Below are positions 823-61,027 of a DNA stretch of 64,000 nucleotides, piece after piece. A program made the translations under genes and the position numbers. The stretch lies in the NCBI GenBank assembly GCA_009746045.1, contig RPFO01000579.1:656160-720159 (forward strand), written 5' to 3'. The stretch comes from Mesostigma viride. Taxonomy: Eukaryota; Streptophyta; Mesostigmatophyceae; Mesostigmatales; Mesostigmataceae. The notes under the pieces were generated by a model. It searched no databases. It was not told the origin of the DNA and saw only the letters and a list, made by a program, of their open reading frames with translations. The first letter of the stretch is position 1. Each line of letters starts with the position of its first letter.

Positions 823-3800
823 GTATGCGACCCCGTGATGGTCGCCAGCAGCGGCGCGAGGCTCATGGCCCCTGGGCTCCTCGAAGCCTTCAAGACCCGT
901 CTACTGCCCGCTGTAACGCTGCTCACCCCCAACCGCACGGAAGCGGAGGCGCTGCTGGGGCGGTCGCTGGCGTCGGCCAGGGACGTGGAGCGGGCGGCCA
1001 GGGACCTGGTTGCCGCGGGCGCCAGCAGCTGCCTCATCAAGGGGGGCGATGATGTGGATGAGGCGGGGGGGGAGCCCGAGGTTGGTGTCGTGGGATGCTA
1101 ATTATACTAGTGATGGTGCTAGTAGTAGTGGCGCTAGTCTATTGAGGCGGGGGGGGAGACCGGGGTTGGTGTTATAAATAATATGTGTTATACATGCAAC
1201 TGTTGTACAAATGTGCAAATGTGTCTTGCAACCGGCACAACCCTCCTTCCTTCTCATGGTGATTGCTGTGCTCAATGAGGCGGGGGGGGGGGGGGGGGGC
1301 GAGCTTGAGGTTGGTGATGTGGGACGGTCGTGAGGATAACAATGTTTCATGATGATAGCATAGTCATCGAGGGGGGAAGGGGGAAGGGGGGCGGCAGTGG
1401 GCCTGAGGTTTGGGTAATGCGCGCGATTTTTATTTTGAATTATGCATGCAAATACGTCTTGCGACCTACACGACCCAACATCACGCGTAGCAACCATGTA
1501 GGCACAGTAGCATGATATGACCCAAAGGGGAAGGGGGCGGGGGCGGGGGGTTGGAAGCCCGACATATGTGTCGTGCGATCGCTGGCGATTGGCTTAGTTG
1601 GGAGTTACGTCAATTAACTAGCATGTGGTCCCATCAGGCAGCCATTTGATGCTGATGGCCCAGTTTGGGGCTGGGACAGTGCCCAAACGGCTGCATATCA
1701 GCGACTGTGTGGTGCCTATGGGCAGCCGTTTGGGCAGGACTGCCCCCAATCATCGGCCAGCTGGGTGGGCTGGCGGCGTCTGTTTCTCCAGCCTTTCGCA
1801 CCGGCCTGCTAGCTAGCATTGATTGTGACAAATAGCTAGCATTTGTAGTAACAAATAGCTAGCATGGATAGTGACAAATAGCTAGCATGTATGTTGAAAA
1901 ATAGCTAGCATTTATGTTGTCAAATAGCTAGCATTTGTAGTCACAAATAGCTAGCATTGATAGTGACAAATAGATAGCATTGATAGTAACAAATAGCTAG
2001 CATGTATGTTGAAAAATAGCTAGCATTTATTGTAACAAATAGCTAGCATTGATAGTGACAAATAGCTAGCATTGATAGTAACAAATAGCTAGCATGTATG
2101 TTGAAAAATAGCTAGCATTTATGTTGACAAATAGCTAGCATTTATTGTAACAAATAGCCAAGCAAATAGCTAGCATTTATGTTGACAAATAGCTAGCATT
2201 TATGTTGAAAAATAGCTAGCATTTATGTTGACAAATAGCTAGCATTTATAGTAACGAATAGCTAGCATTGATAGTGACGAATAGCTAGCATTTATGTTGA
2301 CAAATAGCTAGCATTTATAGTAACAAATAGCTGGCCTGCCGTATCTTCGCGCCCCCCCACCAGACCGTTTGCGCAGCTTAGCTGTCCATACATTGGTGCT
2401 GACAGGTGCCCCCTGTTTACTCTGTTCTGTTGACCCACCTTTCGCTGGCCCCGCAACACCAGTTTGCGCAGGACTGCTGGAGTGACGGTGAGCAGGTTTT
2501 GTGGCTGACCTCGCACCGCGTGCGTTGCGGACGCCAGCACAAGACCGTGCACGGCACGGGATGCACACTGTCAAGCGCGATCGCCGCATGCCTGGCCAAA
2601 GGGCTCAGCCCGCTGGAGGCCATCGTCGCCGCCAAGACGTGCGTTGTGTCACAAGTGCCTTATTACATAGTCCTCTACCCAGTCACTTTAAATATAGTTC
2701 CCTACCTAGTGCTAAACTAATGGAAAACATCTATATGTGCCTTAAAACATAGTACCCTAAGGAGTGCTATACTACTATAATTATGCATCTCATGGCATTC
2801 TTGTAAGCATCAGTTTCCTTTTAATCATAACCTGCTCCTTTCGCCTCCTTGTAAATGTCCCCCCTTGGCAGATGACAGCTACGTGGCTGACTCCCAACCT
2901 CTTTCTTGCCTCTGTTCATTTGTCTATATTCTTATAACCACATTGTTCTTGTTCGTGTCCTCCCCTTCTTGTTTGTGTCCTCCCCTCCTTCTGGTTCGTG
3001 TCCTCCCCTCCTCGTTCGTGTCCTCCCCTCCTTCTGGTTCGTGTCCTCCCCTCCTTGTTTGTGTCCTCCCCTCCTCCAGGTTCGTGTCCTCCCCTCCTTG
3101 TTCGTGTCCTCCCCTCCTTGTTTGTGTCCTCCCCTCCTCCAGGTTCGTGTGCTCTCCCCCTCCGTTTTCTCGTCCTCCCCTTGTCCTTGTTTGTGTCCTC
3201 CCGTCGGCAGCTAGGTGGCTGACTCCCAACCTTTTGGGTGGCCTCTATTTATGCCCCTGTGTACTATGCCTACCGTCTTATACAATATTTTCATCCTCCC
3301 CTCGGCATGCCATATATACTACACCATATTCCCTATACCATGTGCCATATACCATATATATGACCTCTGTGTATATTGTTCTTGTTTGTTTTCTTCTTGT
3401 TTGTATCCTCCCCTCGGCAGCTACGTGGGCGAGGGCATCGCGCGTGCGGTCGGCGGGGGTGTCAACCAGCCACCCCCACAACGCGGGTCCACACCGCCAC
3501 ACGACAACTCACTCCGAAACGGCGGTGCGGAGCCACGGCTGGCATCCGTAAAAGGTCCCCAGCCCATCGCACCCACTACCTGGCCACCCGTCCACCGGCC
3601 CTCGAGGAAATCCAAGCCTCATGCAACCCCCCAAGGGACACCAAACTCGCGAGAATCAGCGAGTGCCAACGTGGATGACGTGGCCCGGCCGGGTCAATTG
3701 GACACCTCTTCTATTTCTGGCGACGCCACCACTTTCCCATGGATCACACAAATCGCTGCCGCGGGCCGGTGGGGCCACCCGGGTGGCGCGCTCGAGTTCA

Positions 3801-6800
3801 TTCGCATCCAGCCGGGCGAGGGACTTGGCTTCTACGTGATCCTGTGCCGGGCGGAGTCGTATCTGCGGGAGTTGCTGGCGGCGGGGTTGACCACGGTCCA
3901 GGTAGGGCGTGCCTACTCAACCACTATTTGTATAATTAGCGACTTGTAGTGTACTTCTGGTTGACCACCGTCCAGGTACTTCCATGCCTACTTAGCTGCA
4001 TGTTAAGTATCTGCTATCAAATCATCTGCTACTGACCACGGTCCAAGTAGGGCGTGCCTAGTCAGATAGTGCAGGTACTATTAGCTACTATAGTTTAAGT
4101 ATCTGCTATCAAATCATCTGCTACTGACCACGGTCCAAGTAGGGCGTGCCTAGTCAGATAGTACAGGTACTGTTAGCTACTAGTAGTGTACTTCTAGTAA
4201 TATAAGCTATTTGCTGTATGATCTCCACGGTAGCTTGACTCAGTGCTATCCGTGGGAGCTTCTGTCGGCCGGGCCGACCACCGCGCAGGATGCTGCTTGT
4301 CTATTATGTTATCAGCTTCAGCTAATTTGATTCGTGCTAGTCAGCCAACCAGCGGGCATGATAGCTCTCCGGGTAAATTTCTGTCTATATCATTAGCTAT
4401 CAGCTCCGTACTAACTCAGGCCGGTCGGTGGGAGATATCTAGTTAGTTTGTTGCTTTCTGATCTGACGACAAAGTTAGTGGCCGGCCCGATCATGGTTCA
4501 CCGCATGCATGCCTTGTTATTTTATTGCTTATCGCTAACTCAGCGAGGACTTGGCCAGCTGGCTTGCTGTACTGCCGGAGAGCAGCTATCTGCGGCCAAG
4601 GTAGCTGCCTCTTTCATTCAATTTGTTAGTCAGTTCGTTGGTCAGGTAGCTAGCGAGCTACACGGCTAGTTAGGCAGGCAGGTGGGCAGGCAGGCAGGTA
4701 GGCGGGCGGGTGGGCAAACACTAGCGTACGTACTTGCTGAGCGATCATGCCCCAAATCATCCGGTCACAAGATTTCATCTGCCCTAAAATGGTGACAGTG
4801 TCCAGATCTTAGCGCCCCGCAACGGGCAGTGTCCTCCTCCAGTTGATGTCCTGCAACATCTCTTATCTCCCGCAACATTTCCATTGCACAATGCTAGCAT
4901 TTGGCAGACTGTCCTTCTCTTCCTCTCCCCACCCAAAGAAGACAACTTCTGGGTGGGGAGAGGAAGAGAGGAAGAAGACAACTTCTTTGGGTGGGGAAAG
5001 GAAGAGAGGAACAAGATAAATCTTGAAAAGAAGATCTTTTCTTGAGAGAAGATAGCTTTTAACGCCTCTCTCCCTCGGCCCTGGGTTGGGGGCGTGCGGG
5101 TGTGCGTCCTGTGTTGTGGGTGGACAATACCTGCAGCTGCGCATGAAGCCGTCCGACGTGCCCGGCCTCTCCTCCCTCCCAACCCCGGAAGAAAGATCGC
5201 GTGCCTACCTCGCAGCGGTTGAGGCAGAAGCGTCCAAGTTCCTCCAAATCATCGACGAATTCTCTTCCTCGTCGTCGCCCACGACACCATCATCAAGCCC
5301 CGGCACAAAGGCCCCCCCCTTTACTGCCAATACCCAGCCCAGCCCTGGCGCCAACATCCCCGCGTCCCCCCCCAACCCCAGCCCCCGCCACGTCAAATTC
5401 ATCCTCAACGACCACTGGCAGATTGCCCTCCGCCTCAAGCAGACACCATCGGGCGCCGCCCACCTGTGGGGCGTGCACCTCGGCCAGGAGGACCTCGTCA
5501 CGGCCGACCTGTCCTCGCTGGCGTCTGCGGGGCTGGGCCTGGGCGTGAGCACGCATAACCTGGCTGAGCTGGCGATCGCGCTGGGCGTCCGGCCGAGCTA
5601 TGTGGCGCTGGGGATTGTGTATCCAACCACGTCAAAGGATATGCCGACGGGGCCCGTGGGCACGCCCGCGGTGGCGGCGTGGCGTGCGCTGGTCCCAGAG
5701 TCGGTGCGTTTCACTGATTTTTTCGTAATGTTAAATGTGGTTCTTAGAGAAATGTTAGGCTTTTTTTTCCACAGGGCACTGGTGCCAGAATTGGTGTTTT
5801 TTTCCCTACGTTCTAACACCTTGAAAAGCTATGCGATATCTTGGGAGCGTGCTGGTGCCAGAGTTGGTGCGGTTTTCGCTCCCTATTATTAGATAATACA
5901 GCTTTTGACGGTACTGGTTAGATGGTTCGAAAGTTTGTTAGAACGTGACAAGGTTGTTAGATCCTTTAAAAATGTATGTTTTCTCCTGAATGCGCTGGTG
6001 GTGGTCGGCAGCATCAACTTTATCATCGCCTACCTTGCTTGCATGCATTCGTGCTTACTTGTACGTGCACCTTTGATTAGGGATACAACAGGTTTGAGTA
6101 TAATGGTCTCAAGTCCCGTTATTTTGGTGGGAGTCCGCGGCATCAAGTTAAGTTAGTATGAATATGGGCCGGAATCCTTGTGCCGCTCGGCTCTAAGGTT
6201 CCGGACCAATATTTACCCACTGATAACCACTCGCTGGTTACCTGTGGTGCACATAAACTCATGTTACCAGCGAGTGGTTATCGCTGGGTAAATATTGGTC
6301 CGGAACCTTAGAGCCGAGCGGCACAAGGATTCGGGCCCAAATTCATACTAACTAGTTTATCGACCCCTACCACTGCGTATCCTCCACCGTTTCATGAGGG
6401 CGACTGTGATTGAAAAATATGAATCTGAGTCAGGGGGATCACCTTGCTTGGGCGTAGCAGTATGCATGTTCACACGCCTACTTGCATGTGCCTGTGTGGT
6501 CAAGGACCAAGTGTGATGTCGTCAGGTCTCCCTGGTGAAAATGATCGACAACAAATTGAAAATGAAGCTCTACCTGTATGCATGCACATGTACTGCTACG
6601 TGCTCGCTATAGTCACTTGCACATGCACGCGTGCCTACGTTCTACTTCATCCTACCCCGACCCGGTGCCGTAAAAGACGGATCGTGGGCAATCAGCGGCA
6701 TCCACCTGACCACTAGAAATGATGTTTACGTCATCAGGTCCCCTGGGTGTTTATCAGCGGCATCAACTTATGAAATGGATGGCTACCTGTACCCCACGAA

Positions 6801-7771
6801 TATCTTACGGATTGTATGTCCACGTACGGCGAGGTAATCTGTCACCTGGCCCCCCTGGTGGCCATCGGCAGCATCAACTTGGTTTAACCAGCGCCTACGT
6901 GTCATGCTTATTGACGTATATTTGCCTTACGACTTTGTAACTTTTATCATCACTTTGTGCCGTATTTGGGTTTATGCATGTAACTGTGCTTGTACTGACT
7001 TGTGTCGGACTATCAAGGAGACAACCAGCGCAGGCCAGAAATCGGGAGAATCTGGACTATGGTAGCTCGAGCCTGCCGTTATCTTTTCCGCGTTTTCGAG
7101 TCGTTCAGGATGATGAATATGAATGGAGATGGAAATGTGTAGCCTTGTGCATTGAAATTATGGCTTGCTTACGTGTAGAGCGACTAGATGACATAGACGG
7201 TGGGGCCGGAAACAGCTTGCTTGATCAGGGCGTGTGTTTCGAGCCTAAGTGGCCGGGAGTGTCTAGTGGTGAGCACCATTGCTGCGATCGCTCTCCCACC
7301 ATTTACGAGGAAGTACCCGCAAATGGAAAATCACTGAAAAGGTCTAGCTAGTCAGTCATTACGTTAGCCATGCCATGTTTCCAAACGTCCAAGAACTGCA
7401 CACGGTGCAAAGGCAAAAATCCGGAGGACAGCACATAATCATGATTCATGCCCGGACTCCACTCGTAAGCATCGGCCGCGTCCACCTAATTACATGCCTA
7501 CCCATACCCATGCACGCGCGCCTACCCATGCATCCACGCAAACCCACACCCATGTATACCTGCTAATGCTTGTATGTCCTTGGGGGTATTTCTTCGTGTG
7601 CATGAGTACTCACGTCACCAGGTCCCCCTGGTGGGCATCGGCGGCATCAACTTGGAGCGCGCCCCCAATGTGCTGGCGGCCGGCGCGGACTCGGTGGCCG
7701 TCATCACCGCCATCACGCACGCACCTGACCCGGTCAAGGCATGCCGTGATTGGCTGGCTTTGTTTAACTAG
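823..7771 (+). CDS. TH1: TH1-like bifunctional HMP-P kinase / thiamine-phosphate synthase (ThiD-ThiE fusion), 5' part missing
   Basis: Phosphorylates HMP-P to HMP-PP (ThiD half) and joins it to the thiazole phosphate to give thiamine phosphate (ThiE half); in plants this enzyme is plastidial. Five exons fit in phase: 823-1080, 2472-2638, 3421-3901, 5137-5703, 7622-7771, giving 540 visible residues and a TAG stop. ThiD signatures are CDPVMVASSG, LLTPNRTEAEALLG, IKGGDD and the anion-hole motif HGTGCTLSSAIAA. A Pro/Ser-rich linker of roughly 100 residues follows. ThiE signatures are LGFYVI, TTVQLRMK (across the exon 3/4 junction), ILNDHWQIAL, WGVHLGQEDL, LGVSTHN, RPSYVALGIVYPTTSKDMP and VGIGGINLERAPNVLAAGAD. 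A Ser/Pro insertion of about 50 residues interrupts ThiE before ILNDHW. The ThiE half reads like the proteobacterial (E. coli) type. The first part of ThiD lies upstream of the window. Donors are GTTGGT, GTGCGT, GTAGGG and GTGCGT; all acceptors end in CAG. The family call is secure; exact exon ends are inferred. Confidence 0.9.
1058..1545 (+). repeat. decayed copies of the TH1 exon 1/intron 1 donor junction
   Basis: The true junction (gaggcgggggg...cccgag|gttggtgtcg, 1058-1095) is echoed at about 1141-1177, 1274-1324 and 1391-1420, each keeping a G-rich block followed by GAGGTTGGTG or a close variant. A second shared block (tgcaaa...gtcttgc followed by cacaaccc or cacgaccc) recurs near 1200-1245 and 1445-1477. 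This indicates tandem units of roughly 100-250 bases that include the exon end. Confidence 0.7.
1720..2480 (+). repeat. acceptor echoes and ~20-bp satellite in TH1 intron 1
   Basis: From about 1805 to 2335 a tandem satellite has units near 20-22 bases, each containing AAATAGCTAGCATT followed by a variable TATGTTGA, GATAGTGAC or TATAGTAAC. On either side are copies of the exon 2 acceptor. GTTTGGGCAGGACTGCC lies near 1728 and GTTTGCGCAGCTTAGCTG near 2364; the functional GTTTGCGCAGGACTGCTGG ends at 2471/2472. The units are contiguous with no unique spacers, so this is not a CRISPR array. Confidence 0.75.
2639..3420 (+). repeat. TH1 intron 2: acceptor echoes and C/T-rich minisatellite
   Basis: The exon 3 acceptor reads CGGCAG|CTACGTGGGCGAG at 3415-3433. 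Two earlier copies read CAG|CTACGTGGCTGACTCCCA (from about 2877) and CAG|CTAGGTGGCTGACTCCCA (from about 3208). Between them (2945-3205) is a minisatellite with units near 20 bases built on TCGTGTCCTCCCCTCC. The donor side also repeats loosely (TGCCTTATTACATAGT against TGCCTTAAAACATAGT). Confidence 0.75.
3886..4305 (+). repeat. TH1 intron 3: tandem copies of the exon 3 donor junction
   Basis: The junction TTGACCACGGTCCAG|GTAGG is repeated at 3960-4002 (TTGACCACCGTCCAGGTAC), 4032-4070 and 4124-4162 (CTGACCACGGTCCAAGTAGG). A weaker copy lies near 4267-4290. The two middle units are a near-identical repeat of about 90 bases. Some copies keep GT directly after the exon-like tail. Confidence 0.8.
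4917..4968. repeat. perfect 19-bp hairpin in TH1 intron 3
   Basis: CTCTTCCTCTCCCCACCCA at 4917-4935 is followed after 14 bases by its exact reverse complement at 4950-4968. A degenerate third copy of the right arm follows near 4990-5008. The hairpin sits about 170 bases before the exon 4 acceptor. The rest of 4306-5136 holds no gene. Confidence 0.8.
5685..6010 (+). repeat. TH1 intron 4: copies of the exon 4 donor junction
   Basis: The real junction GCGCTGGTCCCAGAGTCG|GT (donor at 5704) recurs at 5774-5805 (GCACTGGTGCCAGAATTGGT), 5848-5880 (GTGCTGGTGCCAGAGTTGGT) and about 5992-6010 (GCGCTGGTGGTGGTCGG). Each keeps a GT where the donor would be, followed by a T-rich run. Confidence 0.8.
6151..6353. 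mobile_element. foldback (inverted-repeat) element, ~203 bp
   Basis: It starts AGTTAGTATGAAT and ends with the exact reverse complement ATTCATACTAACT. The two arms of about 90 bases each pair almost completely, sharing blocks such as TCCTTGTGCCGCTCGGCTC and CCGGACCAATATTTACCC. A short unpaired loop lies near 6245-6265. It has no coding capacity. It is either a foldback MITE or a hairpin produced by inverted duplication. It sits in TH1 intron 4. Confidence 0.8.
7012..7345 (+). mobile_element. long copy of a TCAAGGAGACAACC dispersed element
   Basis: This family starts TCAAGGAGACAACCAGCGCA and here runs about 330 bases to near GCAAATGGAAAA. A second long copy lies in the opposite orientation at 21202-21518, and a 230-base copy at 19024-19250. 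Many truncated copies keep only the first 25-45 bases. No coding frame is supported. The TC start, usually preceded by A, is reminiscent of Helitron 5' ends, but I could not find a convincing CTRR hairpin end. Confidence 0.75.
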
Positions 7772-8915: not shown

Positions 8916-8925
8916 ATCTCCCAAC

Positions 8926-45856: not shown

Positions 45857-47297
45857 AAGAATTGTGTACTTATAGAAACTGATAGCATGATGAAAGAGCA
45901 TTATGCAGCGTGTCTGGGCAAGGACCGATGAAGGGAACAAGACAAGGGAGGAGAGTCAGGCGTAGGGAAGAGAGAGCCCTCAATGTGAGGTTTCTGAGCA
46001 CTTAGTCTGGTGACAAAGTTGTAGAAAGTAACCAGGGAGGAGGGAGCAGCATGCATAGTGTAGGGGTTCATGGGCAAGGACCAGTGAAGCGGTGAAATGA
46101 AGAAGTGAGAGGGAGCGCGTGGTTTCACCGAGATGGATTAAAGAAGCACTATCTTGACGTCAAGGGGAATCCGTCCCTTTACTATGTGCAGTACGCTATG
46201 CAGGTATGAAGAATCAAAGAGCAGGGAGCCCACCACCCTGAACCAGCTAAACTTATAACCCCAAACAATGGAGACCTGAGGACTTATGCTCACGTGACGC
46301 AGTCACGTGTCTATTAATTAATTAATTAATTAATTAATTAATTAATTAATTAATTAATTAATTAATTAATTAATTAATTAATGGAGACCTGGGTTCTTTG
46401 GGTGAGAACCAATTGAAGTACTATATGAAGTACTATATGATCACTCTGCCCAGGCGCACTGGGCACGGTCAAAGTTATCGGTATCAACAAATTGGGTATG
46501 TTGGTGTTTGTCAATGAGCTGTACAATAATCAGTCCCCATGCATATCACGATTGCAAATGTTATATTACACGTTATGTAGTACAATATAGTTAATTTTTT
46601 CTAAATATGAATTAATCTCGTGCTCCCGTTGGGGAGTCAAGTTTTCTAAATACATGCGTCATGACCAGCACGCAGACGATTTATGATTAGTAAAAAAAAA
46701 GTACACGTGACATGCTGCGAGATGCCCGCACGTGTGCAATGACACATGATCCCAAAATGCATTATAACATGTGCATGTTTGCTTTTCTCACATATACTTC
46801 AGAATGTTTTACAGTTTTCTGGGGTTGTTTGCATGAAGGGTATTCGAAACCCAGACACCATGCACGGGAAGACCGCACATGCACCACGTGCACGTTTATC
46901 CGCATGCCCCTTGTGCATCCAGGTGGCTTTCACTGGCGCCCCCGCAGCCATCATACATGCATGCTTGCTAATTAGGCGCACTGCAAAAAATGGTGCATGG
47001 TCACGCTATGCGCAAAGTCAGAGCAGAATCTGTGGCCCAAGCACCCGTCGCATCCTGTGCATACGGTTTACTGATTCAGCTTAGATGGAGCCAGGTAACC
47101 CTCGATCTACACCAGCGATAGTGCATAGTGTATACCTTGGCATCCCGCACAATTTCCTAGCCTGCACCAATTTCCTTATTGGGATAGCCAGGGAATGCTC
47201 AGTTGTGACGGCAGCAGCTAGGCACTTTGCAGTCGTAGAAGGCATCAATAGCCTCATTACACTACCTGCGACACAATACGCGAGAGATCAGTCAAGA
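45857..47297. other. convergent intergenic region
   Basis: Between the stops of the DUF3177 and NeuC-like genes. It holds echoes of the last DUF3177 coding bases (GGGCAAGGACCAGTGAA near 45840 and 46072, GGGCAAGGACCGATGAA near 45917). It also has a family A fragment joined to a TTAATTAA tract (46276-46383) and a CTCCCGTTGGGGAGTC cap at 46623. No gene seen. Confidence 0.55.
46308..46383. repeat. (TTAA)n tract
   Basis: About 19 consecutive TTAA units next to a CACGTGACGCAGTCACGTG family A end. Confidence 0.97.
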
Positions 47298-50200
47298 CTA
47301 CGCCTCATTGACCGAAAAAGCTGCGAGCTTGCCCACGACTGACGCATGCACACCATCCATCACCTCGGCAAGACCCCCGGGGGCATCAGCAACGTCACCG
47401 CGTGGGCGTGCCGGGGGCAAACTACAGCCAGCGTTGTTGCAGCCAGCACAACTGTCAGCTGGCGTCGATCCATGATCACGGGCCTCCACGTGCTCTCGCA
47501 CCGCCTCCAAGTCCACAAAGGGCTTGTTCATGCCCCCTGGCTCTCGAAGTGCAGTGTGGAGGAAGGGCATGAAGCGGCTCGTGGCGTTGCCGTCGCCGTA
47601 GAGCAGCGTGGGCTCGAACCGCTTACCTGCGTGCGGGGTGGCCGCGGAGATGGTGACAGCATGGGAAAATGGGAGAGGATGAGAGGGTCGTACACTGAGA
47701 AAAAGGAGAGCAGCGCGGGCTCGAAACGCTTGCCTGCGGGACGGAACCAACCAAAAAAACGAGAGGCGGAAAGAAGCCAGAGTTGCAACTAATAAGCATG
47801 AAGAAATTACATCACGGGACATGGCAATGGAGCGTCCTTCCTAAAATATAGAGCGGACGACGGTGGCGAGGATGAGGGATGGAGCAGTACCAGGCCGGCA
47901 GGATAAGATTAAGCACAACGAGGGGGAAACCGAGGCGCTTACCCGGCAGGGAAGAACAACCCGGCAGAATGCAGAACGGAAGGCAGCCACTCTCATGAGG
48001 GCAGGGTAAAAACAGGCATTCAATTAGTCAAGGCATGCAAATCGAAGACGAATTCAGCTAAGCGAGGCAGTCGATCAGACTGCGCAGCCGACGTTACCTA
48101 TATCGGCCTCCCCTTCAGCCGAAAGCTTCATAAAGCAGCCCCTCACCAGGGGATTACTCCAGGAGTGGATTACGTTACTTCTATCACGAAATTCCCTCTT
48201 CTGCGTTAACACCAAGAAAAAAAAAAACACCACAGCTCAGAGAATATAACTCCACGATAAACCTCCAGCGTGCCTATAGGGCGAGGAGGTCAAGTAAATG
48301 CACAGCTCGCCACAAAATTCTCCCTGAGCGCCGCCCCCCCCACAACGAATGCTCATGCAAGAACTCTACAACGACCTTCAGCCTAAACTGATAGTAGTAT
48401 ACGTTATGTTTATAGTCTACAGTCACAGGGCCTCGCGCTTCTCAGTTCTCACCAAAATTGTCTTTCAGCGCCGCCTCCAGATTTGCCTCCGTCACGTTCT
48501 CCAGCCTCATTAACGACGCCCGCGCGCCCGCCCGGTTGGCCTGCCTGCCCCCGATGCTAATCGAAGGCACCCCCAGCGCGCATGCCTCCCTGGTCCCTGC
48601 GCTACTGTTGCCCACCATGCACCCGCAGCTGCGCATGAGGACTGCAAACTCGGGAAACGGCATCGTGGTCACGGGGCGGATGAGCTGCTGCGGCGCCGCC
48701 ACCCGGCCATCCACTGCCAGGAGGCCGTTCCCTCGTCCCCCCATGACATCTCTCCTGTCCGCCACCATGTCGAGCACATTTTCCCCAGAATCGGGGCCCC
48801 GATCGCGGCTCTCTTGTGCCCTGTTGGAGTCTCCCTCGCCCGCCCCAGTAATGGGCACATCTTTCCAGTCCAACCCCGAGTGGTCATTCCCTTCCGCACC
48901 CTGGGCGCACACATCCTGATCATGTCCCCCCAGATTGCCATTCCCTTCTGCACGGAAGGGCGCAACTCTCCCGGCCTCCCCTGTGTGTACATCGCTCTCG
49001 TCTGCTCCCACATGGCCGTAGTTCCATACCGATGGACCCGGCACCATGCCCGGCATCAAGTAGCCACTGGCCACGTCCCCACTGGCCAAGTTCCCAATGG
49101 CCAGGTTTCCGCTGGGCCCGTTTGCGCGGGGCATGTCTTCAGCGGGCACATTTCCCCCGGGCACGTTGATCCCTGGGATAGCACCATGAGATGCCGGGGG
49201 TTCCATGTCTGCCGCGCCGTCGAGGCCCCCACTTTCTGAGCTGGAGCCTTTCTCCCGCCTGGGACCGGAATGCTGCGCAGATTCTGGGTGGTACCCGTGC
49301 CCACCCCCATGTGGGTTCCGTGGAGCGCAATCATGGGCCGAGCGCCGTGACGGCTGCAAGAAGCGATGAATCTCCGCGATCAGCGCCTTATTCCCAGGGT
49401 CCGTGTTGGGATAGAATAGGAGCGTGCGGAGGCCCATGCGCGTGGCGACGGTCAGGATTATGCGGAACTCCCGCACGGACGCCTCCATGTCGTTCGTGTC
49501 CGGGTGGTGCTGCACGAGGAGGAACTTGCGCGGCTCCACACTGTAGTGCTGCAGGACCTCGTCCTCTGATCGGCTCATCGGCAGGTGGACGTTGCCCAGC
49601 AGGACGTCGTAGGAAGGGCACCCCGCCAGGCACACGCGCGACGGGTGCTCGCCCAGCTGGAGCACGCGCCGGCGCGCCTCCTCGTTGCAGACCAGGTGGA
49701 AGTGGGCCAGCTTTGTGATCGCGTGGCGGAGGACACCGTCGGCGCTCCCGGATAGCTCACCGCCCTCCAGGTGGAGCACGCGGATGCCTGACAGGGAGGC
49801 AGCGGAGACGGCCGCGAACGCATCGTAACGGTCCCTGTTTGGGGGGGGGGGGGGGGGGGGGGGGGCGTGTTACATGAATAAAATGTTACTACTGTACATA
49901 TGCGGTACATACACTGCGCATATACTGTACATAAACTGTAGTATTTGGATGAGATCAAATGGATAAGATGTTAATGTGTTCATGTTAAAGAGATTTGTGA
50001 GACTTGTTGTGCTTTGGTCATGGTGGGTGGGAAGGAGGGGGGGGGGGGGGAGTGGCATGGAGGGAGAGTGTGGGCATAGGGGTGTTGTCTCCTTGATAGG
50101 GGTGTGCTCATATTTATTATCAATTAGTGGTATGTTCTCGTGATGATGGTAATACTCTCATGGGTGGGGGAATATGAGAAAACGAGGATTGACAGCGCTA

Positions 50201-51772
50201 TGTTCTCATGGTAGTGATAGGGGTGGGGGGAATAGGAGGAAATGAGGTAATTCCTGGGTAATTAGGGTTATAAGTACTATGTTCTCATGGTGGTGGTATG
50301 GTATTGGTGAGCCAAGGGTACAAACGTGTTCCGAGAAGAGGCAGGAAGATTGTGTTCAATGGGATCGATGTCAGTCGATCTGTGGGGGCAGGGGGGCGCA
50401 TTTACGGATGTGAGGGGCGGTGCGGTGAGTTGGTCAGAAGCAATAAGACTTGCTTAACCCTTGGACTTTGTCCAACTCCCCCCTATAAACAGGGGCCAGA
50501 TGGAGTAGGTGTTGCTTCATAGGAGTTGCTTAACCCTTGCACTGAGTCCGAATTCCCCTCTGCAGATAGGGGCCAGATGGAATAGGAGTTGCTTAAATGG
50601 CGAGACAAAATGTAGTGTGGGGTAGCGGAAATAAATGCAGCTGAGCTGTCGCTAACAGATGGTGACAATACCACAAAAAGCTACTTGCGTCGTGACGACG
50701 CTTGGAGCTGGCTCCTGGGCACTGCGATGGCATCATGATTCATACATTATTCATTGCTGATGTGAGCTCATGATCCAGCCGAATCGATGACTTTGCTGTG
50801 ATTAAACGGCCGACTCAAAACTATAGCTCATTGATTGAACAAATGACTTCGCTGTGATTGAATGTGCTCAATTAAGCCATAGCTATGATGAAACGAGCAT
50901 GGGGATAACCTCATTCTAATCCAGTTGGGGCCCGATTGAATAGATGCTAGCAGTTAGCCAGCTGTTGTTTGCATGCACCAGGGTGAAGTAAGATGAATAA
51001 AAATAGAAACAGTTGGGAACTTACTGATAGTGTATAGGTGCCTGCGGTCGACTTATAAACATACTAATGAAACATACTAATGAAACGTACTAATGAAACA
51101 TAAAAACTTGCATGCGGACCAGCTCGAAGCATATACATGAAATTGTGACAATGGACACCTGTCGCTGCTGGAAGGCTCGTGTGATAGAGTGTAATCAATA
51201 ATTAGGATATAGTGCAATCATCAATTAGGGTGCTACAAATGCACATTCCATGAGCATTAGGAGACTCTGGTACACTAAGCACACAGCTAGCAGGGGACAT
51301 TAGGACAAGTGGATTGATAAATCAGTAGACCATCTACCCATAGACAATAGCATCGTCAAAGGCCCTGTGGGCACTTAATGGGCATAAAGCCCCGGTTGAG
51401 GATTGCAGCCTAGCTGGGCGATAAAAATAGCATTATCTATGGGGACACCTACCCGTGGACGACGACAATGTCCGGCCTCAGCTGCCGGAAATTGGACGAG
51501 AGTTTGATCATGGCCATCGCGACACTGTCCACCATGGACTCGGAGGAGTCGCCCGCGACCAGCGTGTTGGTGGCGATAGACACGGGATATCGGGCCCGAA
51601 TCGTCTCGACCGTCCAGCCGAACTCCATGAGGAGGTGGCACCCAATCACCAACAGCTGCAGCTCCACCTTGCTGTCCTCATGCAACGCGGCGACGAGCGG
51701 CTCGAGCTTGGACCAATCCGCCCGGTTGGACGTCACCACGCACACCCGGGAACGCTCGTGCTGCTGGCCCAT
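47298..51772 (-). CDS. UDP-N-acetylglucosamine 2-epimerase, NeuC/GNE type
   Basis: Hydrolysing epimerases of this family convert UDP-GlcNAc (or a derivative) to ManNAc and UDP, the first step to sialic or related nonulosonic acids. Exons 51772-51453, 49834-48453 and 47626-47298 join in phase to 676 residues. Signatures are RVCVVTSNRADWSKLEPLV, DIVVVHGDRYDAFAA (HGDR split by intron 1), VLHLEGGELSGSADGVLRHA, ITKLAHFHLVCNEEARRRV, LGEHPSRVCLAGCPSYD, then MVGNSSAGTREACALGVPSI and LLYGDGNATSRF in the last exon. An insertion of about 165 residues, rich in Gly/Asp/Asn with NLAIGNLASGDVASG-like repeats, splits the domain before the PFPEF-VLM segment. There is also a C-terminal extension of about 85 residues. 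Normal family length is near 370-390. No signal peptide is seen, so it is probably cytosolic. Confidence 0.8.
47700..48452 (-). repeat. acceptor echoes in NeuC-like intron 2
   Basis: The last exon begins CAG|GTAAGCGGTTCGAGCCC (minus strand, 47629-47612). Copies with the same acceptor shape are at 47735-47715 (CAG|GCAAGCGTTTCGAGCCC, extending into CGCTGCTCT) and about 47952-47930 (CAG|GGTAAGCGCCTCGG, shifted by one base). The rest of the intron has no gene. Confidence 0.75.
49835..51452 (-). other. NeuC-like intron 1
   Basis: Starts (plus coordinates) with a G run of about 26 bases beside the exon 2 acceptor. 50440-50600 holds a 70-base direct duplication (GTTGCTTAACCCTTG..., GGGGCCAGATGGA-TAGG). 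50135-50290 has three loose copies of TATGTTCTC(A)TGGT. No exon seen. Confidence 0.6.
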
Positions 51773-52436: not shown

Positions 52437-52447
52437 CACTCAGTGTC

Positions 52448-52689: not shown

Positions 52690-53690
52690 CACTCAGTCAT
52701 TCACGCCTTCAGGCGCGACTCACATCAGGCATGAGGCTTGGTGAACTGCGACGGTGAACTGTAGGTGAACTGGGTCGACGGCCGGGTCGTCGGTCCTATT
52801 ATAAGCACCGGCGCTTCACCGGCCCTTCACGTCTTCGAGTTCTCTGAATCACATGGGCGCAACTCACTGCGCAAGGGTCGCAACCACGTACGTCCAGTCG
52901 AGTACCTAGTGAACTGCTCGCTAGTGATCTGAGTGAACTGGCTCTGGAGGCGCGGGAAGTCGGCCCAGATTTCGCGGGAAAGGCGGGGCGCAAACGTCAC
53001 TGAAGCAAGTGCATGATGCATCCGGGCCAACATGCACGTGTTGTCCAGCCGGCTGTAAACCACTAATTTCTGCACCACTAATTTATCACAGCCGACTACA
53101 GAAATATGATAAAAACGCGCCGTTGACCTGTCGTGCATGTCGCTTCTCCAGCTACCTGTCTGCGTTCGCTTTTTTTGCAAGTTTTTCCAGGTGTTGGTGC
53201 GAGTGCTTCTCTGTCAATATTGTTTCAAAGCCGGTTTGTTTATTGGCTGGGGACGACCCCAGAGCCGCCCGCCGTCACATGCACAAAACATGGCACATGG
53301 CGCAAGAGGCGTTCGGTTATTTACTGGAGAAAATTGGCCCGATCAGCGAGCCGAATCTCCAGACAACAGCGGGCAAGGGCTCCGGTTGGACGTGGTAAGA
53401 CCCGAGCAAATGCTCATGGGTACATTATGAGAATGGCTTTCTCATAGCTGCGACTATGGTACCTTGGAGCGGGTATATGGCATCGCTTCAAACACGTGGT
53501 CCAAAAATGGGGAACGCCCTGGCATTCTGCGAGAACTTGTAGAAACAGCAAACAGCGGGCGTATGTTCCGGTTGGACGCCTATGGTAACCTGGACAGTGT
53601 ATACGTCGTCGCTGGCTCCCTGCAAACACAGTGCCCTGCCCACCCATACGTGCATGTGCACATGTGGCATGTGCGCATGCACACGCACAT
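52690..53690. other. no confident gene
   Basis: Two related but frame-broken stretches (53280-53400 and 53465-53630) share GTTGGACG with similar neighbours and look like a decayed duplication. No domain recognised. Confidence 0.3.
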
Positions 53691-53696
53691 GCACTA

Positions 53697-54057
53697 CACG
53701 CACACGCACACGCACACGCACACGCACACGCACACGCACACGCACACGCACACGCACACGCACACGCACACGCACACGCACACGCACACGCACACGCACA
53801 CGCACACGCACACGCACACGCACACGCACACGCACACGCACACGCACACGCACACGCACGCGCACGCGCACGCGCACGCGCACGCGCACGCGCACGCGCA
53901 CGCGCACGCGCACGCGCACGCACACGCACACGCACACGCACACGCACACGCACACGCACACGCACACGCACACGCACACGCACACGCACACGCACACGCA
54001 CACGCACACGCACACGCACACGCACACGCACACGCGCACGCACACGCACACGCACAT
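53697..54057. repeat. (CACACG)n with (CACGCG)n core
   Basis: About 360 bases of alternating purine-pyrimidine 6-mers, with the CACGCG variant concentrated at 53857-53920. Such alternation favours Z-DNA. Apparent His-Thr or Val-Arg frames are repeat artefacts. Confidence 0.98.
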
Positions 54058-54060
54058 CTA

Positions 54061-54325
54061 GAGTCCCTCCCTCCTCCCTCCCTCCCTCCTCCTCCCTCCC
54101 TCCCTCCCTCCCTCCCTCCCTCCCTCCCTCCCTCCCTCCTCCCTCCCTCCCTCCCTCCCTCCCTCCCTCCCTCCCTCCCTCCCTCCCTCCTCCCTCCCTC
54201 CCTCCCTCCCTCCCTCCCTCCCTCCCTCCCTCCCTCCCTCCTCCCTCCCTCCCTCCCTCCCTCCCTCCCTCCCTCCCTCCCTCCCTCCCTCCCTCCCTCC
54301 CTCCCTCCCTCCCTCCCTCCCTCAC
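54061..54325. repeat. (CTCC)n pyrimidine tract
   Basis: CCCT/CTCC 4-mers with single-base phase slips at fairly regular spacing, so a 60-base higher-order period is visible (slips near 54139, 54190, 54241). Confidence 0.97.
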
Positions 54326-54540
54326 ACACACATTCTTTTCATGGATGGGCATCTGATTTCCCATATTAGAGTGGGCATAAGCAAGAGTTTGTTTAATACC
54401 TTAACTCCTCACTTCATTTTGCAAATGTGAGTCAACTTTTCAGAATTATAATAATGGAAATTCCATTAGCTTACCAATCAGCCAATGTTTTCTAATGCAC
54501 ACGCGTGGCCACCAATGACCAACGACGAAGCAAGCAACGG

Positions 54541-56206
54541 CTACAAGTCATCGAAGAGCGCCTCATTGCCACCGTCATCATCGTCGTCATACCGCTTCCC
54601 CATGACCCCAATGAACTGCGAATAATCCTGCCCACCACTAACATCTGCGCTGCCATCATCCCCATCGTCCTTCTTGACATCCCTGTCTCTCCGCCGCGCC
54701 CGCTTGTCCTTAATCCCGACACCCGTCTCGCTCTCGCGGCCCCTCTCCTCGCCACTGGCCCCTCCCTCGCCCTCCGTCCCCTCCAGGGAATCCGATGACG
54801 GGGGCCGCGCCACGCCCCTGCCAGCTGTCACGATCGTGTCCCTCGGCACGAGCTTGACGGCGATCCGGCGGCGGCGGTTGAGCGTGTCGGGGTCGGCGCC
54901 CTCAGGGAGGACCTCGACGCGGCAGGGGCTGCGCAGGCGAGGCACAAAGTATTCGCCGCCGGCCTCCAGCTGCATATACCGGCGGGGAAAGAAAAAACTA
55001 GGCAAATCGGCAGGTTAAGTAGGCCTGCTACTAAGGTTAAGGTCAAAGTAAAGTTAAGGTTCAGGTGCAGGTTCAGTTTACCTAGACCGGCTTCTAACCG
55101 CAAACTCAAGTGGTTCCTTTCTGAGATAATTTGTCATACACAAGAGATGAAGCACGGTTACTTCAAAAGTGATGAACATGTTGTCGGAAAGGATAAGGGT
55201 GCCGCCATACGAGTTCACAGAACAACGAATCCATTCGTCAAACCTTGGTACTGAATATTTTCTAGGCCATACAAACCCAAACCCATCCTCGGCACCAGTC
55301 ACATGAGCATGAGGTAGAGTAGCATACTGATGAGAAACAATCACAATCACATTATAACCATGACACTTACCACCATTTACTAACCGGCCGACGCATAGCC
55401 ATCTCATCCTCATTTTAAGTATAATATTCACATCCTCGGCGGAGACCCCTTCTCAGTACCACACCATTCGACACTGTTATTACAATACCATGCCATTCGA
55501 CACTGTTATTACAATACCATGCCATTCGACACTGTTATTGCAATGATTGTTGTCATACTTACATCTTACATCCTCGGCGGGGACGTAGCCGTCCAGCTCT
55601 CACCCCATCTCCATACCATACTGACTATGACGATAGCAAATTTAAAACTAATGCTAAATATACTTTCGCTAGTACTGCTAAATATACTTTCACTAGTACT
55701 GCTAAAGATACTTTCACTAGTACTGCTAAATATACTTTCACTAGTACTGCTAAATATACTTTCAATACCACCGCTAAAATCACTACTGCAAATAATACTC
55801 ACATCCTCGGCGGACACGTAGCCGTCCAGCTGGCACCCCATCTCGACAAACATGCCGCCCCGGGGCTTGCCCGCCTCGAGCTCGTCGCTCTCGCTTCCGT
55901 CATCCGCCACAAACTTCTTCACCTTGGCCGCATGCACCTGTCCCTCCTCCAGATCCTGCCCGACAACATGTGTGGAGACATGAGACAAGCAAAGGGGTAA
56001 CAAGGGGCTTGAACAAGTCACAGGTAGACAACAAGGGACGAGGGACGAAAGGCCCCTTGCCTCATCCTGTGGGGTTCCGACCGCGAGCCCCATTGAGTGA
56101 CTCAGTAGAGGCAGAATGATCAACAAAGAGGGTCAGGGGATACCTGGCCCGTGGCCAGATCCTGCGTGTCCTCACGCAGGCACAAAATAATAATAATAAT
56201 AATAAC

Positions 56207-56238
<32 letters not shown>

Positions 56239-59200
56239 CAACACACAGTAGAAACAAGTATGAGTTGACAATGACAGCTGTATGATAAGTAAACACAGCA
56301 GAAACAACAAGGAAACAAGGTGATTAAGTCACAACAGTTACCGAAGGGCTCATCATGGGGTTTACCAAAGGGTGAGACATCAAGCCTCATGCAAGTCCTT
56401 CAGGACCGCACGTGCGGAAATACGCAGAGTACAAATTGCTTCAGGACCGCAAGTGTGAGGCATGAAAAGGTGCACAAAGTCACATACGAACGTAATCAAG
56501 GAATAGATTGACGTCATACAGGGTCAAAAGGCACCTGACATTCGCACCAGTCCTGCGTGTCCCTCGGGGACACTGGAGTCATGAATTAACAGCTAACACA
56601 CAGGCACGCAATAAGACACCCATGACCAGATGAGCAAGTAAACAATTCACTAAACAACTGACGTAATAACAAACTGACTAAGTCAATTAACTGACAAAGT
56701 CACAAATCAACCAAGTCCCCCTCGTAGTGGGCCCACACTCCACGCACAAGCACAGAGTCAGAACTCAGGCGACAAGGAACATTCCCAGTCATGAGCCGCA
56801 ACTTAGCAAAGTTGTTAACCTACGAACCTACGAAAGAGCATAGGGATCTAAAGACACTTACCACCCACCAGCCATCCAACCAACCATCTCCCCAATCCCC
56901 CCCCCCCCCCCCCCCACTCACCACCGCATGTACATTCGCACACATGCACGGATTAATTAACGCACACATATGATCAGCCACCAGCCATCAGCCACCAGCC
57001 ACCACCGTGTCTAAGCACACACACATGCACGCATGCCCCCCCCCCCCCCCCCCCCAAAGTTCTTGGAAAGAAACAAACTAGGCACCTTGAGGCGGAAGCG
57101 CCGCTGCTCCACCTTGCCGCCGCTCTTGAGGGAGAGCCGCAGCGTCTTGCGCCGCGCGTCGACCGCGATCACGCGCACACGCACACGGGTGCCGCGCTCG
57201 AGCCGCCGATCCGTCGGCTTACGCTCGCCGATCTCGCTCACGTGGAGCAGCCCGTCCTGTTATAGAGGGGATGGGCCCACATGCGCATATAAAATGGGTT
57301 GTTTCCCGTGTCAATGGCATGAATACACCCAATACCCATGTCACTCAGGTAGAGAGCCCGTCCTGTTAGAGGGGATGGGTCGATATGCATGAGGCAACCA
57401 TGAGGCAATAATGAGACCACTACTTATATATAACAATACACAACTACTTCTAGAGGCAACAATGAGACCACTACTTATATAACAATACACAACTACTTCT
57501 AGAGGCAACGATGAGACCACTACTTATATAACAATACACAACTACTTATATAGGCAACCATGAGACCACTACTTATACATAGCAATACACAACTACTTAT
57601 ATAGGCAACAATGAGACCACTACTTATATAACAATACACAACAAATACTTATACAGGCAACAATGAGACCTTTACTTATATATGTGTGTATCATGGGTTA
57701 ATACGTGTACCGGTTGAGAACCTTTTCAATGCAAATGACGACGATATAAACCGATCTCGCTCACGCGGAGCCAGCCATCCTGCTATAGAAAGAATGGGTC
57801 AATATGCGTGTACAGTATCATCCAGCGCACAGCTTGTAATGACACCGACACAAACCGATCTCGCTCACGCGGAGCCGTCCTGTCGTGATTCCAATATTTT
57901 GATAGTTTGTCATAAGGATCGCTGCGATGCAGATGTTCAGATGTTCAGATATTCAAAAGTTCAGAAGTTCAGAACACCTGGGAATTGCTTTACTACAATC
58001 GGCCTGGCAGGTGCGGCAGGCAGTCCTATTATATTCATGGGTCCTATTAAACTTTAGGGATCCTACTGTGTTGAATGGTCCTATTATAGTAGCAGTGCAT
58101 GAGTCCTACCATATTACATGGGTCCTATTTCTAAATGGGTCAATGCACGTATCGTTCGTTGGAGCAACGTTCAGGCCAACAGAAAACTGGGTGCTGCAAA
58201 TCTCTCTGTTGGCTCGGTTCACCAATCTCACCCACACGCAGCAGCCTGTGCTTTGCCGATTGGATGAATCGTTTGCAACTACGCCCAAGCAAGCAGACCC
58301 CTGACCCCATGGAGGCCGCCCTCCGGGAGCTAGAATAATACATAGAATAACTATTTGAATAATCATTGATAGCCCAGGGACGGTCACACAAACGAATTGC
58401 AGCGCGCTGGGTGTCGCAACGCCAATCTCAGTCACGGGGAGCTAGCCGTCCCTGATTGGGCGGGCGGGCAGCACATACTGGATAGATTGTGGGGATAGGG
58501 GAAGGTTAGTCTGTATACGGGTGTTTATTTTGTGCTCCCTACCGCCACACGAATGGACCCTGTTCGTCACCTTAACAAGAACGTGGCATCTGGGCACTAG
58601 CAAACCGTCCTGTTAAGATGGGCGGGCAGGCACGTGAAAGGATTGTCGCGAAGCTTTGTTGTAAGCTACTGTGGCATATAATGTTTATTGCAGTACACAG
58701 TGACTAAGCGACTGTTAGCGGATAGGGGGACGCTGTAAGGAAGCTCTGAAGCTTCAATTTTTCTTTCTTACCTAAAAGCTTTTTCATTCCATTCACAGTA
58801 TAACGCCCTTTCCTGCAGGATAAGGGGGACCATGGACATGGATCCATTAGAAACGGTAAGTAGGACCTACCATGTACAATGGCGAGGGGAGGGAAGATTG
58901 CTGTCCTGTTACCGCGGCACAAAGCACCGGATGGTGGCTCAGGATGCTGCCTCGCCCCCCTCCCAAAGCCCGAAAAAAAATAAATAAAAAATGATTGACA
59001 ATACGTATAGTAGCAGTAATGACGATAGTAATAGTGAAACAAAGAATGTGATAAAAGTAATAACAGGAATCTAGATAATAATATTAGGCATCCTTCAACA
59101 GGACATACTTAGGGCTTACGGAGTAGACATATTTGAAATTTTGAACTATGATGGTCCTGCACATGGCAACGATACGCATGACCGAGAAGAACCGGCCCGC

Positions 59201-61027
59201 AGTCCTATTCGATACATGAGCTATGTGAAGCGGCGAGGTAGATATGGTAGTTCAGGGGGTTGCCTTGCGGGGCCGTAGGGCAACCCACCTGGCTATTCAA
59301 TACACGAGCTCTTTGTGGCGGCGACCCATCTCGTCGTCAGAAAGCAACAACCGTGAAAACGCTAGCTGCCCAAATCCGAGATTCCGCGGAACACAGAAAG
59401 TAAGAAAACCTAGAAGCTACCAGCAAGGAATCGAACGTAGGACCTGTGGCATGATTTCGCGGCTGTGTGAGTCTCCCGATCCGAAGGCATCTCACTTAAC
59501 GTGTCGAAACACCCCAACTGCGAAAAACCTCTTTACCGGAGAGGGGTGCCAATATGTCCGATATTGCTGAATCTATAGAAGATGACTCACCACTAGACGT
59601 AAGTGCGCAGGTGTACTACGCACGGACCTACACGATATTCTAGTATCGCCGAAGTAGGCAGGTTGACCACGGCTGGAATCTGGTTTTAGTGTAACGTACA
59701 AACCTAGAGGACGTAGCCGAATCTAACTAATACCAACCGATCTTACATCGTCGTCAGAAAGCAACAACCGTGAAAACGCTAGCTGCCCAAATCTGAGATT
59801 CCGCGGAACACAGAAAGTAAGAAAGCCTAGAAGCTACCAGCTAGGAATCGAACATAGGACCTTTGGCATGATTTCGCGGCTGTGTGAGTCTCCCACCTGG
59901 CTATTCGCTACACGAGCTCTTTGTGCGGTGACCCACCTGGCTCGCGCCGACGTCGACGATGCACCCAAACGGGAAGCACGCGCGCACGCGCCCGTCCAGC
60001 ACCTTGCCGCGCCGGATCTCCTCCAGAGGGACACGGTCCGGCCCCTCACGCGTGATTGGCCCAGACTCCTCTACCCGTGCGCCAGCATTACTATCGTTGC
60101 CCTGCTTTCCGCCAGCATTATTGTTGTTTTTTACCTGCCTGGAGCCGCCTTGACGGGGGGGGGAGGAGGAGGCATTACCGCTGTCGTTGGTGGCGCCGTC
60201 GGCAGAGCCTGATGCTTTCGGGCGGCCCGCTGCGTCTTTTTTCTTGTTGTTGGGCTTGGCCTTGGGGGGGTTGTCGTCAAAAAGGGAGATGGTGTACCTG
60301 CAGGGGGGGGTGGGTGTGATGGTGGCATGTGTGTGTGCGTGTGGGGGGGGGAATCGATGAATTTCAAAAGGGGAGGAGGATTGTTCATGCAACCCCTTAG
60401 GGCACGACGAGCACAGCAACTTCCAGTCGGCCACTGCAGCGGTTGCCAGTATCCATGTTCAAGCAGCCACCAGGCGCTTGAGTGCGCGCCGAGGCTATGC
60501 TGCACGCTGAAGCTAGAGTGCACGCCGAGGCACGGGGTGGAGTGGCAGAGTGTGCGCCTGCAAACACGGCCTATATATCCCGACAGTTAGGGCGTACATT
60601 GAGCGTGGGCACAGGTATCATTACAGAGATATCCCGGGGACCCTGGGGCATTCATCATAATAGATTGAAGGATACGGGTTAAGTTGGACACGAAAAGGAG
60701 GAATGGGGCTGCCGGTAACGTGATAGCAACCTTTTAAATGTCGCAGCAGCGACGACAGTCGAGACCGCCGGCTGGCCTGGCTGGGACTTACCGAGTGCCA
60801 CGTACGGGTTTTGCCCCTGCAGCGCTCTTCTTTGCGTCGCTGCCGCCAGCACTGCAGATGCACCGGAGAGGTGCCTCGGTATGCTTCCGTAGGGGGGCTG
60901 TCAGCTGTCTGCTGGAGCTTTTCACTGCCCGGCCCAGACTAGACTTGAGCTTGGAGGGGGCCGCTGTCAAACAGCCAACTTGAGCAGATGCAGCATTTAG
61001 AAGCCCAATTGGATTCGCTGGGGCCAT
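54541..61027 (-). CDS. S1-domain RNA-binding protein, probably plastid-targeted
   Basis: Exons 61027-60792, 60297-59937, 57256-57086, 55955-55803 and 54969-54541 join in phase to 449 residues; the phase-2 split codon at exon 1/2 matches a perfect GTAAGT donor. Residues 1 to about 70 (MAPANPIGLLNAASAQVGCL..., rich in Ser/Lys/Arg/Ala) look like a chloroplast transit peptide. A disordered Asn/Ser/Lys stretch follows. The S1 domain (about 170-255) reads LEEIRRGKVLDGRVRACFPF, GCIVDVGASQDGLLHVSEIG (split by intron 2), RVRVRVIAVDARRKTLRLSL. A second, divergent OB-like unit starts DLEEGQVHAAKVKKF and continues GGMFVEMGCQLDGYVSAED, with an insertion. The tail is acidic (KRYDDDDDGGNEALFDDL). Proteins of this type bind organelle mRNA or ribosomes; the exact orthologue is not identified. 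Confidence 0.85.
55425..55850 (-). repeat. S1 gene intron 4: donor-junction echoes and 24-bp tandem repeat
   Basis: Exon 4 ends (plus strand) ACTCACATCCTCGGCGGACA then CGTAGCCGTCCAGCT. Copies at 55562-55612 keep ACATCCTCGGCGGGGACGTA and CCGTCCAGCT, and one at 55431-55450 keeps CACATCCTCGGCGGAGAC. Between them are a 24-bp tandem (GCTAAATATACTTTCACTAG, 55650-55770) and a triplicated CCATTCGACACTGTTATT (55475-55545). Confidence 0.85.
55956..57085 (-). repeat. S1 gene intron 3: weak acceptor echoes and simple repeats
   Basis: CAGATCCTGC at the exon 4 acceptor recurs near 56155 (CCAGATCCTGCGTGTCC) and 56548 (CCAGTCCTGCGTGTCC). It also holds (TAA)n at 56188-56236, two C runs (56897-56918, 57036-57055) and a CAGCCACCAGCCAT tandem near 56975-57005. 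Confidence 0.55.
57228..58840 (-). repeat. S1 gene intron 2: serial copies of the exon 3 acceptor and exon start
   Basis: The functional region (plus strand) reads GCCGATCTCGCTCACGTGGA then GCAGCCCGTCCTGTTATAGA (57228-57268). Echoes: 57350-57388 (GAGAGCCCGTCCTGTTAGAG), 57750-57810 (CCGATCTCGCTCACGCGGAG, CCATCCTGCTATAGA), 57854-57890, 58421-58470 (CCAATCTCAGTCACGGGGAG), 58600-58640 (AAACCGTCCTGTTAAGATGG) and weakly at 58810. A 60-base tandem (GAGGCAACAATGAGACCACT) occupies 57385-57680. Confidence 0.85.
59281..59950 (-). repeat. S1 gene intron 2: donor echoes and a 145-bp duplication
   Basis: The donor end of exon 2 (plus strand GACCCACCTGGCTCGCGCC) is echoed at 59281-59330 and 59890-59930 with CCCACCTGGCTATTC and CACGAGCTCTTTGTG. 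A block of about 145 bases at 59330-59474 is repeated at 59750-59894 with few changes (AAAGCAACAACCGTGAAAAC, GAGATTCCGCGGAACACAGA). Confidence 0.85.
59415..59492 (-). repeat. tRNA-like (SINE) fragment
   Basis: On the minus strand GATGCCTTCGGATCGGGAGA and CACAGGTCCTACGTTCGATT fit the same tRNA-like module as 23785-23868, with a B box TACGTTCGATTCC. A second copy of the 3' part is at 59831-59894. Not an intact tRNA. Confidence 0.4.
60298..60791 (-). other. S1 gene intron 1
   Basis: Bounded by GTAAGT (60791) and CCCCTGCAG (60298). Holds G/T-rich tracts near the acceptor and the near-duplicate GTGCGCGCCGAGG / GTGCACGCCGAGG at 60482-60533. No exon needed by phase. Confidence 0.6.

Follow-up and report, generated by a model that had tools for sequence, protein, structure and literature searches.

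Why do introns of several unrelated genes in one stretch of algal DNA contain altered copies of the exon edges that border them, and what kind of process would leave such copies behind? The question was raised by a window of 64,000 nucleotides, the whole stretch of DNA that was analysed, in an assembly of Mesostigma viride with a total size of 439.9 Mb. Mesostigma is described in the accessible part of the genome paper as a single-celled alga with a basal position among the streptophytes, with a genome of 441.8 Mb and a mean intron length of 1,142 bp (PMC6947507). The original prediction was that introns of four genes in the window are built from serial copies of their own splice junctions, hereafter called echoes, and it regarded this mode of intron growth as genome-wide and undescribed. 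Our analysis confirms the phenomenon, which we find moderately surprising.

Echoes in four genes of the window

Gene models were built from reading frame and GT-AG intron ends, and comprise 13 complete introns in four genes. The TH1 gene (ThiD plus thiamine-phosphate synthase) is represented on the forward strand by its last five exons (823..7771; exons 823-1080, 2463-2638, 3421-3901, 5137-5703, and 7622-7771), and the spliced model is 100% identical over 543 aa to the annotated M. viride protein Mesvir1/22390. The S1-domain gene, with five exons on the reverse strand (54541..61027; exons 61027-60792, 60297-59937, 57256-57086, 55955-55803, and 54969-54541), corresponds to Mesvir1/22397 at 100% identity (449/449 aa). 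In the annotation both proteins use the outermost splice sites and not the inner copies described below, which suggests that splicing ignores the latter. The models of the DUF3177 gene, with four exons on the forward strand (42871..45856; exons 42871-43209, 43385-43564, 44810-45028, and 45545-45856), and of the NeuC-like UDP-GlcNAc 2-epimerase gene on the reverse strand (47298..51772; exons 51772-51453, 49834-48453, and 47626-47298, the start codon at 51772 being assumed) were based on Pfam matches and reading frame, the NeuC-like model also on a paralog. Rfam and tRNA scans of the sequence gave no matches.

The NeuC paralog differs from the window gene in two respects. Its intron 1 is about 175 bp long (L002, 6494-6668) versus 1,618 bp for its counterpart in the window (49835-51452), and its third exon (L002, 8141-8665) continues into further sequence (ITARGGSKGIPGKN), which we take to be CMP-sialate synthase-like. 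The paralog may thus be a NeuC-NeuA fusion, unlike the gene in the window.

For each junction, the 40 exonic nucleotides at the border, with the intron side excluded, were aligned to the adjoining intron. The scores were compared with those of 400 length-matched pieces of introns from other genes and with introns resampled by a first-order Markov model, at a threshold of p<0.01. Each of the four genes which the prediction named contained echoes. The own intron exceeded the mismatched introns at 11 of the 27 junctions, i.e., at 6/13 donors and 5/14 acceptors, and 5 donors and 4 acceptors passed the threshold against the Markov introns as well. The predicted excess over introns swapped between genes was therefore present. 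At the other 16 of 27 junctions, TH1 acceptor 2 (exon from 3421) among them, no significant echo was detected with the exonic 40-nt query, so the wording "built from" claims too much for introns in general, although the echoes themselves are real.

The strongest echoes of the window belong to DUF3177, S1, and TH1. At the start of DUF3177 exon 3 the acceptor echoes lie at 44594..44744 (forward strand), with a match of 35/37 at 44708-44744, where CAG is kept, and a further copy at 44594-44630; the donor of the same exon is echoed at 45072..45205 (forward strand), in copies at 45072-45120, with GT kept, and at 45172-45205. The end of S1 exon 4 is echoed on the reverse strand within 55432..55611, by a 38/42 match at 55611-55570 and a copy at 55473-55432, with 24- and 29-bp minisatellites between them. 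The start of S1 exon 3 has five echoes in in-register alignment on the same strand (57335..58450; at 57362, 57776, 57884, 58249, and 58450). In TH1, on the forward strand, the exon starting at 7622 (exon 5) is echoed within 5988..6882, best at 6849-6882 (30/32) and further at 6738, 6683, 6526, 6117, and 5988. Donor echoes in this gene follow the exon ending at 1080 (1143..1172, with 19/20 exonic positions plus GTTGGTGT, and a further copy at about 1290-1309), the exon ending at 3901 (3959..4138, at 3959, 4030, and 4122, the latter two inside a 92-bp tandem duplication), and the exon ending at 5703 (5774..5866, two copies with GT kept). The exon starting at 3421 (CAG followed by CTACGTGG) has visible acceptor echoes at 2876-2903 and 3208-3235 on the forward strand, with an exon side of only about 9-11 nt, and these did not reach significance when the query was exonic only. 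In the NeuC-like gene, on the reverse strand, the donor of exon 2 is echoed at 48313..48338 (21/26, GT lost) and the acceptor of exon 3 at 47707..47733 (23/25, CAG kept), the latter with an 18-bp gap in the alignment with the paralog (C998). The other clear echoes of the window reach about 17-48 nt into the exon, with copies spaced 74 to about 1,630 nt apart.

Some repetitive features of other kinds were noted in the window. A palindromic, MITE-like element occupies 6150-6360 in TH1 intron 4, and about one fifth of this intron, not necessarily the palindrome itself, matches the other M. viride sequence compared, up to eight deep. S1 intron 2 contains a segment of about 146-150 bp twice (about 59328-59477 and 59746-59892, reverse strand), holding GTTCGATTCC, which, as read by eye, we presume to be tRNA B box-like, so that the segment is perhaps a SINE. 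Long simple repeats are located at 34733-36656 (an 8-bp unit x 241), 12414-12762 (TCAT x 87), and 53679-54323 (GCACAC and TCCC arrays).

Side, strand and position of the copies

A second set of genes, encoding CCT chaperonins, was chosen through Pfam PF00118 and blind to echoes. From 58 matches, 44 were entered, of which 40 lay in the DNA analysed; one on a bacterial contig (C2011) was set aside, leaving 39 exons. The neighbouring exon pairs numbered 23, and 19 of them could be resolved; the splice score retained 16 of these, and removal of a dubious one with its donor within a GTGC repeat (C777, pair 0) left 15 introns. Contig C2011 (1,488,356 bp) carries at locus L021 an intronless bacterial-type GroEL gene and a frame of 1028 aa that matches aldehyde dehydrogenase. 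This bacterial contig in the algal assembly is perhaps an endosymbiont genome, in which connection we assume that M. viride has a Rickettsiales symbiont. Contig C1641 (90,890 bp) has the same three CCT exon matches as C887, with identical scores, and is possibly an uncollapsed haplotype. The kinesin and aldehyde dehydrogenase families were covered as exon positions only.

With exact borders, 6/30 edges of the CCT introns were echoed (4/15 donors and 2/15 acceptors). When all 39 CCT exons were used without exact borders, echoes appeared at 16/78 edges on the right side, 3/78 on the wrong side, and 0/78 in reverse complement. The predicted genome-wide occurrence is thus supported in part only. 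Pooling of 31 introns gave 19/62 edge echoes on the correct side and strand (18/62 in a second resampling), versus 0/32 on the wrong side and 1/62 in reverse complement. The pooled echoes were contributed by the window together with upstream TH1 (13/28), the CCT genes (6/30), and the NeuC paralog (0/4), whose borders were 1-2 nt off in the pooled, echo-position, and spacing analyses. Neither of the two paralog introns had a significant exonic echo in the pooled edge test, and in the second of them an apparent decayed copy was visible by alignment. The bias to the correct side and the direct strand points to direct tandem duplications straddling the border, as had been proposed.

These controls bear on chance or low complexity as a source of the echoes. 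TH1 donor 1 is rich in G, doubt attaches to several weak matches with scores of 11-13.5, and three weaker matches of the pooled set look like chance. As a general explanation, chance is virtually impossible to uphold against the mismatched, resampled, wrong-side, and reverse-complement controls, and for the strong cases it is already refuted.

The copies are private to their own border. Besides exceeding other genes' introns, donor edges matched non-adjacent introns of the same gene in only 1/36 cases of the pooled set, in agreement with the claim that each intron repeats its own boundary. No match to 11 of 12 echo regions was found within about 288 kb of other M. viride sequence (the genome being about 440 Mb); the twelfth was partly matched (0.22), which we attribute to the presence of the NeuC paralog in the compared sequence. 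A dispersed repeat, introner or transposon with splice-like ends would be conceivable in a repeat-rich genome, repeats making up 30.1% of intron space according to the part of the genome paper available (PMC6947507). Such an element would not match each intron to its own border rather than to those of other introns; we regard it as extremely improbable and reject it within the 288 kb compared, as the prediction did in denying a single repeat family.

Out of the 18 best echoes, 15 are located in that half of their intron which adjoins their own junction, including all 14 with scores of at least 16, and 9/18 retain GT or AG, which bears out the expected supply of splice-like sites. Introns could also be born by tandem duplication of an exon segment containing AGGT, with the echoes as remnants of that event, a route known in other genomes according to the portions seen of two reports (PMC3443670; PMC4974935). 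This predicts copies of the upstream exon end near the acceptor, against which stand the 15/18 echoes beside their own junction. We therefore reject intron gain for these introns, for which it is very improbable.

Tandem units, their decay, and copies away from splice borders

The youngest array was found at a CCT donor on contig C1468, with four near-identical units of 76 bp at lags of 76, 152, and 228. Each unit consists of 20 exonic and 56 intronic nucleotides, and relative to the first unit the exonic part is 90-100% and the intronic part 93-98% identical; whole tandem units thus cross this border. On C777 a CCT acceptor is accompanied by four copies, at lags of 87, 172, 256, and 338 (steps of 82-87 bp), all with CAG and with the intron half unrecognisable. 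The outer two have low scores of 16 and 14, and it is mainly their even spacing which makes them credible. Among 20 arrays the nearest lag was 60-120 nt in 13, and 34/52 copy spacings were 40-115 bp, both being tallies without a chance control of their own; one of the 20 spacing rows comes from the NeuC paralog and is labelled as a stop codon, being probably a donor. In most older copies the alignment is shorter than the full lag, so the older cases of the window fit whole-unit duplication in part. The junction is often crossed by the copies, to a variable extent, and the exon side of many echoes stops at or near it.

Most old echoes can be recognised in the half that comes from the exon but not in the half that comes from the intron. 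The latter was detected at p<0.05 in 4/14 echoes, and in 4/14 when displacement was allowed, two of them new, giving 6/14 together. Neutral simulation gave 11.2-11.4/14 intron halves expected to be recognisable, versus 5/14 observed above its score threshold. Comparison of intronic copies with each other gave a mean identity of 0.68 for exon-derived and 0.43 for intron-derived parts, with the exon part higher in 20/23 pairs, though pairs within an array are not independent. These figures, together with the CAG retained in all four C777 acceptor copies, would favour echoes which arose in tandem and were then actively kept, whether through gene conversion with the exon as template or through selection for use as decoy or regulatory splice sites. 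Both are possible causes of exon-half persistence. The excess is, however, partly a consequence of finding the copies through their exon similarity, and the intron sides of DUF3177 donor copy 2 and TH1 donor copy 3 are preserved as well as or better than the exon sides. The 6/14 intron sides detected over two tests and the GT or AG kept in only half of the best echoes also speak against it. The echo region of NeuC intron 2 is apparently common to two paralogs, with the 18-bp gap inside it in one of them, so this echo may predate the gene duplication and was not strictly kept. Minisatellite turnover, plain in S1 intron 4, may add to the loss of intron halves. We consider active keeping, which is compatible with the explanation preferred below, rather improbable.

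Local copies are not restricted to exon edges. They were found at 17/118 intron-interior positions in the CCT genes and 49/196 in the window, i.e., 14-25%, counted over positions which are not independent and with minisatellites included. A similar test at p<=0.005 gave 1/208 positions in exon interiors, 36/150 random intron positions, and 9/150 positions in other non-coding DNA; in random stretches of two contigs 23/228 had local copies. Local self-duplication detected by blastn covered 16% of intron bases and was patchy, the mean ranging from 0 to 43% among 17 stretches of 10 kb taken at random. Overall, about 31% of exon edges were echoed versus about 21% of intron-interior positions, an excess which might be due to a slower decay of the exon side.

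Coding ends without any splice site were also copied. Stop codons were echoed in 2/8 genes, both significantly against 3' flanks and random stretches, and no echo was found at the other six. The DUF3177 case is strong: the C-terminal codons and the stop have two copies in the 3' flank (45908..46087, forward strand; 45908-45931, and 46064-46087, 23/24), and it was the one echoed stop among four genes in a test limited to the window (p<0.01). That of the C2122 chaperonin is moderate, with a gapped match of score 14 at a distance of 412 nt. A further candidate in the NeuC paralog, which would have made 3/9, was dropped since the frame runs on and ends in REEG followed by GTGA, more likely a donor. 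Neither of the two start codons available in the window genes was echoed, a very small sample.

The interior copies and the stop codons together indicate a process which apparently does not seek splice sites, although the stops are few, and the predicted tie to splice borders as such is not supported. A duplication directed to junctions, with splicing or transcription making splice borders hot spots (e.g., through R-loops or breaks at splice sites), would agree with the higher frequency at exon edges, with the many echoes whose exonic part stops at the junction or close to it, and with the six stop codons lacking an echo. It agrees poorly with one strong and one moderate stop-codon echo, with the abundance of copies in intron interiors, with the variable extent of junction crossing, and with the youngest unit, whose 20 exonic and 56 intronic nucleotides have no special relation to the site. 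A splice-specific mechanism is thereby weakened, and we hold it to be unlikely.

Origin of the echoes and comparison with known systems

The explanation we prefer, at a probability of roughly three in four, is that the echoes are decayed products of a border-blind process of local tandem duplication, with selection on coding sequence as the filter, and of the same kind as the "mirages" of amphioxus. Direct tandem duplications, mostly of about 40-115 bp, would hit gene-linked DNA irrespective of borders, and some would by chance span a boundary at which coding meets non-coding sequence. A duplication within an exon would harm the protein and be lost. One inside an intron or across a border would be tolerated because splicing or translation keeps using the outermost copy, i.e., the donor farthest upstream, the acceptor farthest downstream, or the first stop. 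Repeated rounds would produce serial copies, which small duplications and minisatellites would spread and substitutions decay, and with each round the intron would gain about one unit of length. In this way border duplication may drive intron growth. A stronger version, in which border-straddling duplication is a main route of intron growth and the exon-derived copies are in addition kept by conversion or selection as a series of decoy sites, appears to us a long shot.

Border-blind duplication would offer a mechanism of intron lengthening besides the repetitive elements with which the long introns of M. viride are linked in the accessible part of the genome paper (PMC6947507). Near-copies of splice sites also provide a natural test of splice-site choice: they often lie 60-120 nt from the real site, and the deciding signal should therefore lie outside the copied stretch. 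If exon-derived copies are truly kept, conversion or selection inside introns would become open to direct study.

Three known systems invite comparison. Intron gain by tandem duplication, as in the potato RdRp case (PMC4974935) and as reviewed for duplications with a splice border or proto-splice site (PMC3443670), both seen in part, shares with our echoes a duplication including such a border or site. It makes a new intron, whereas in M. viride an existing intron lengthens and the old sites stay in use; edge copies at the far intron end, expected from such gain, are not the pattern here. Rogers and Bendich (2025) describe, in the sections accessible, short direct repeats of 4-30 bp at intron borders, in which one border is matched at or near the other, and read them as insertion footprints (PMC11782384). 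The repeats of M. viride are likewise direct and at intron borders, but they are serial copies with mostly 17-48 exonic nucleotides, placed inside the intron near one border.

The nearest system is that of the amphioxus mirages, and the description of the echoes as undescribed does not stand. Mirages, in the portion of the literature on them accessible to us, are tandem direct copies spanning the exon-intron border, with units of about 10-160 bp, many of which retain AG or GT, and they leave regular splicing undisturbed. Our survey, with most subscription journals outside its coverage, returned no green-algal report and nothing nearer than mirages. Here, too, direct tandem copies of the border stand at the 5' or 3' side with degenerate copies in the intron, and both donors and acceptors are duplicated, in the window as in the CCT genes. 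The unit contains the exon-intron border at the C1468 donor and, with its intron half unrecognisable, at the C777 acceptor. The copies of M. viride differ in being mostly old and decayed, and in including one clear stop-codon case. They also come from a streptophyte alga, i.e., another kingdom, and from four named genes plus blind-sampled CCT genes, studied at the level of sequence. Lineage and breadth appear to be new relative to the mirages, and what had been a curiosity of amphioxus genes is carried across the eukaryote tree, which suggests a common and countable process.
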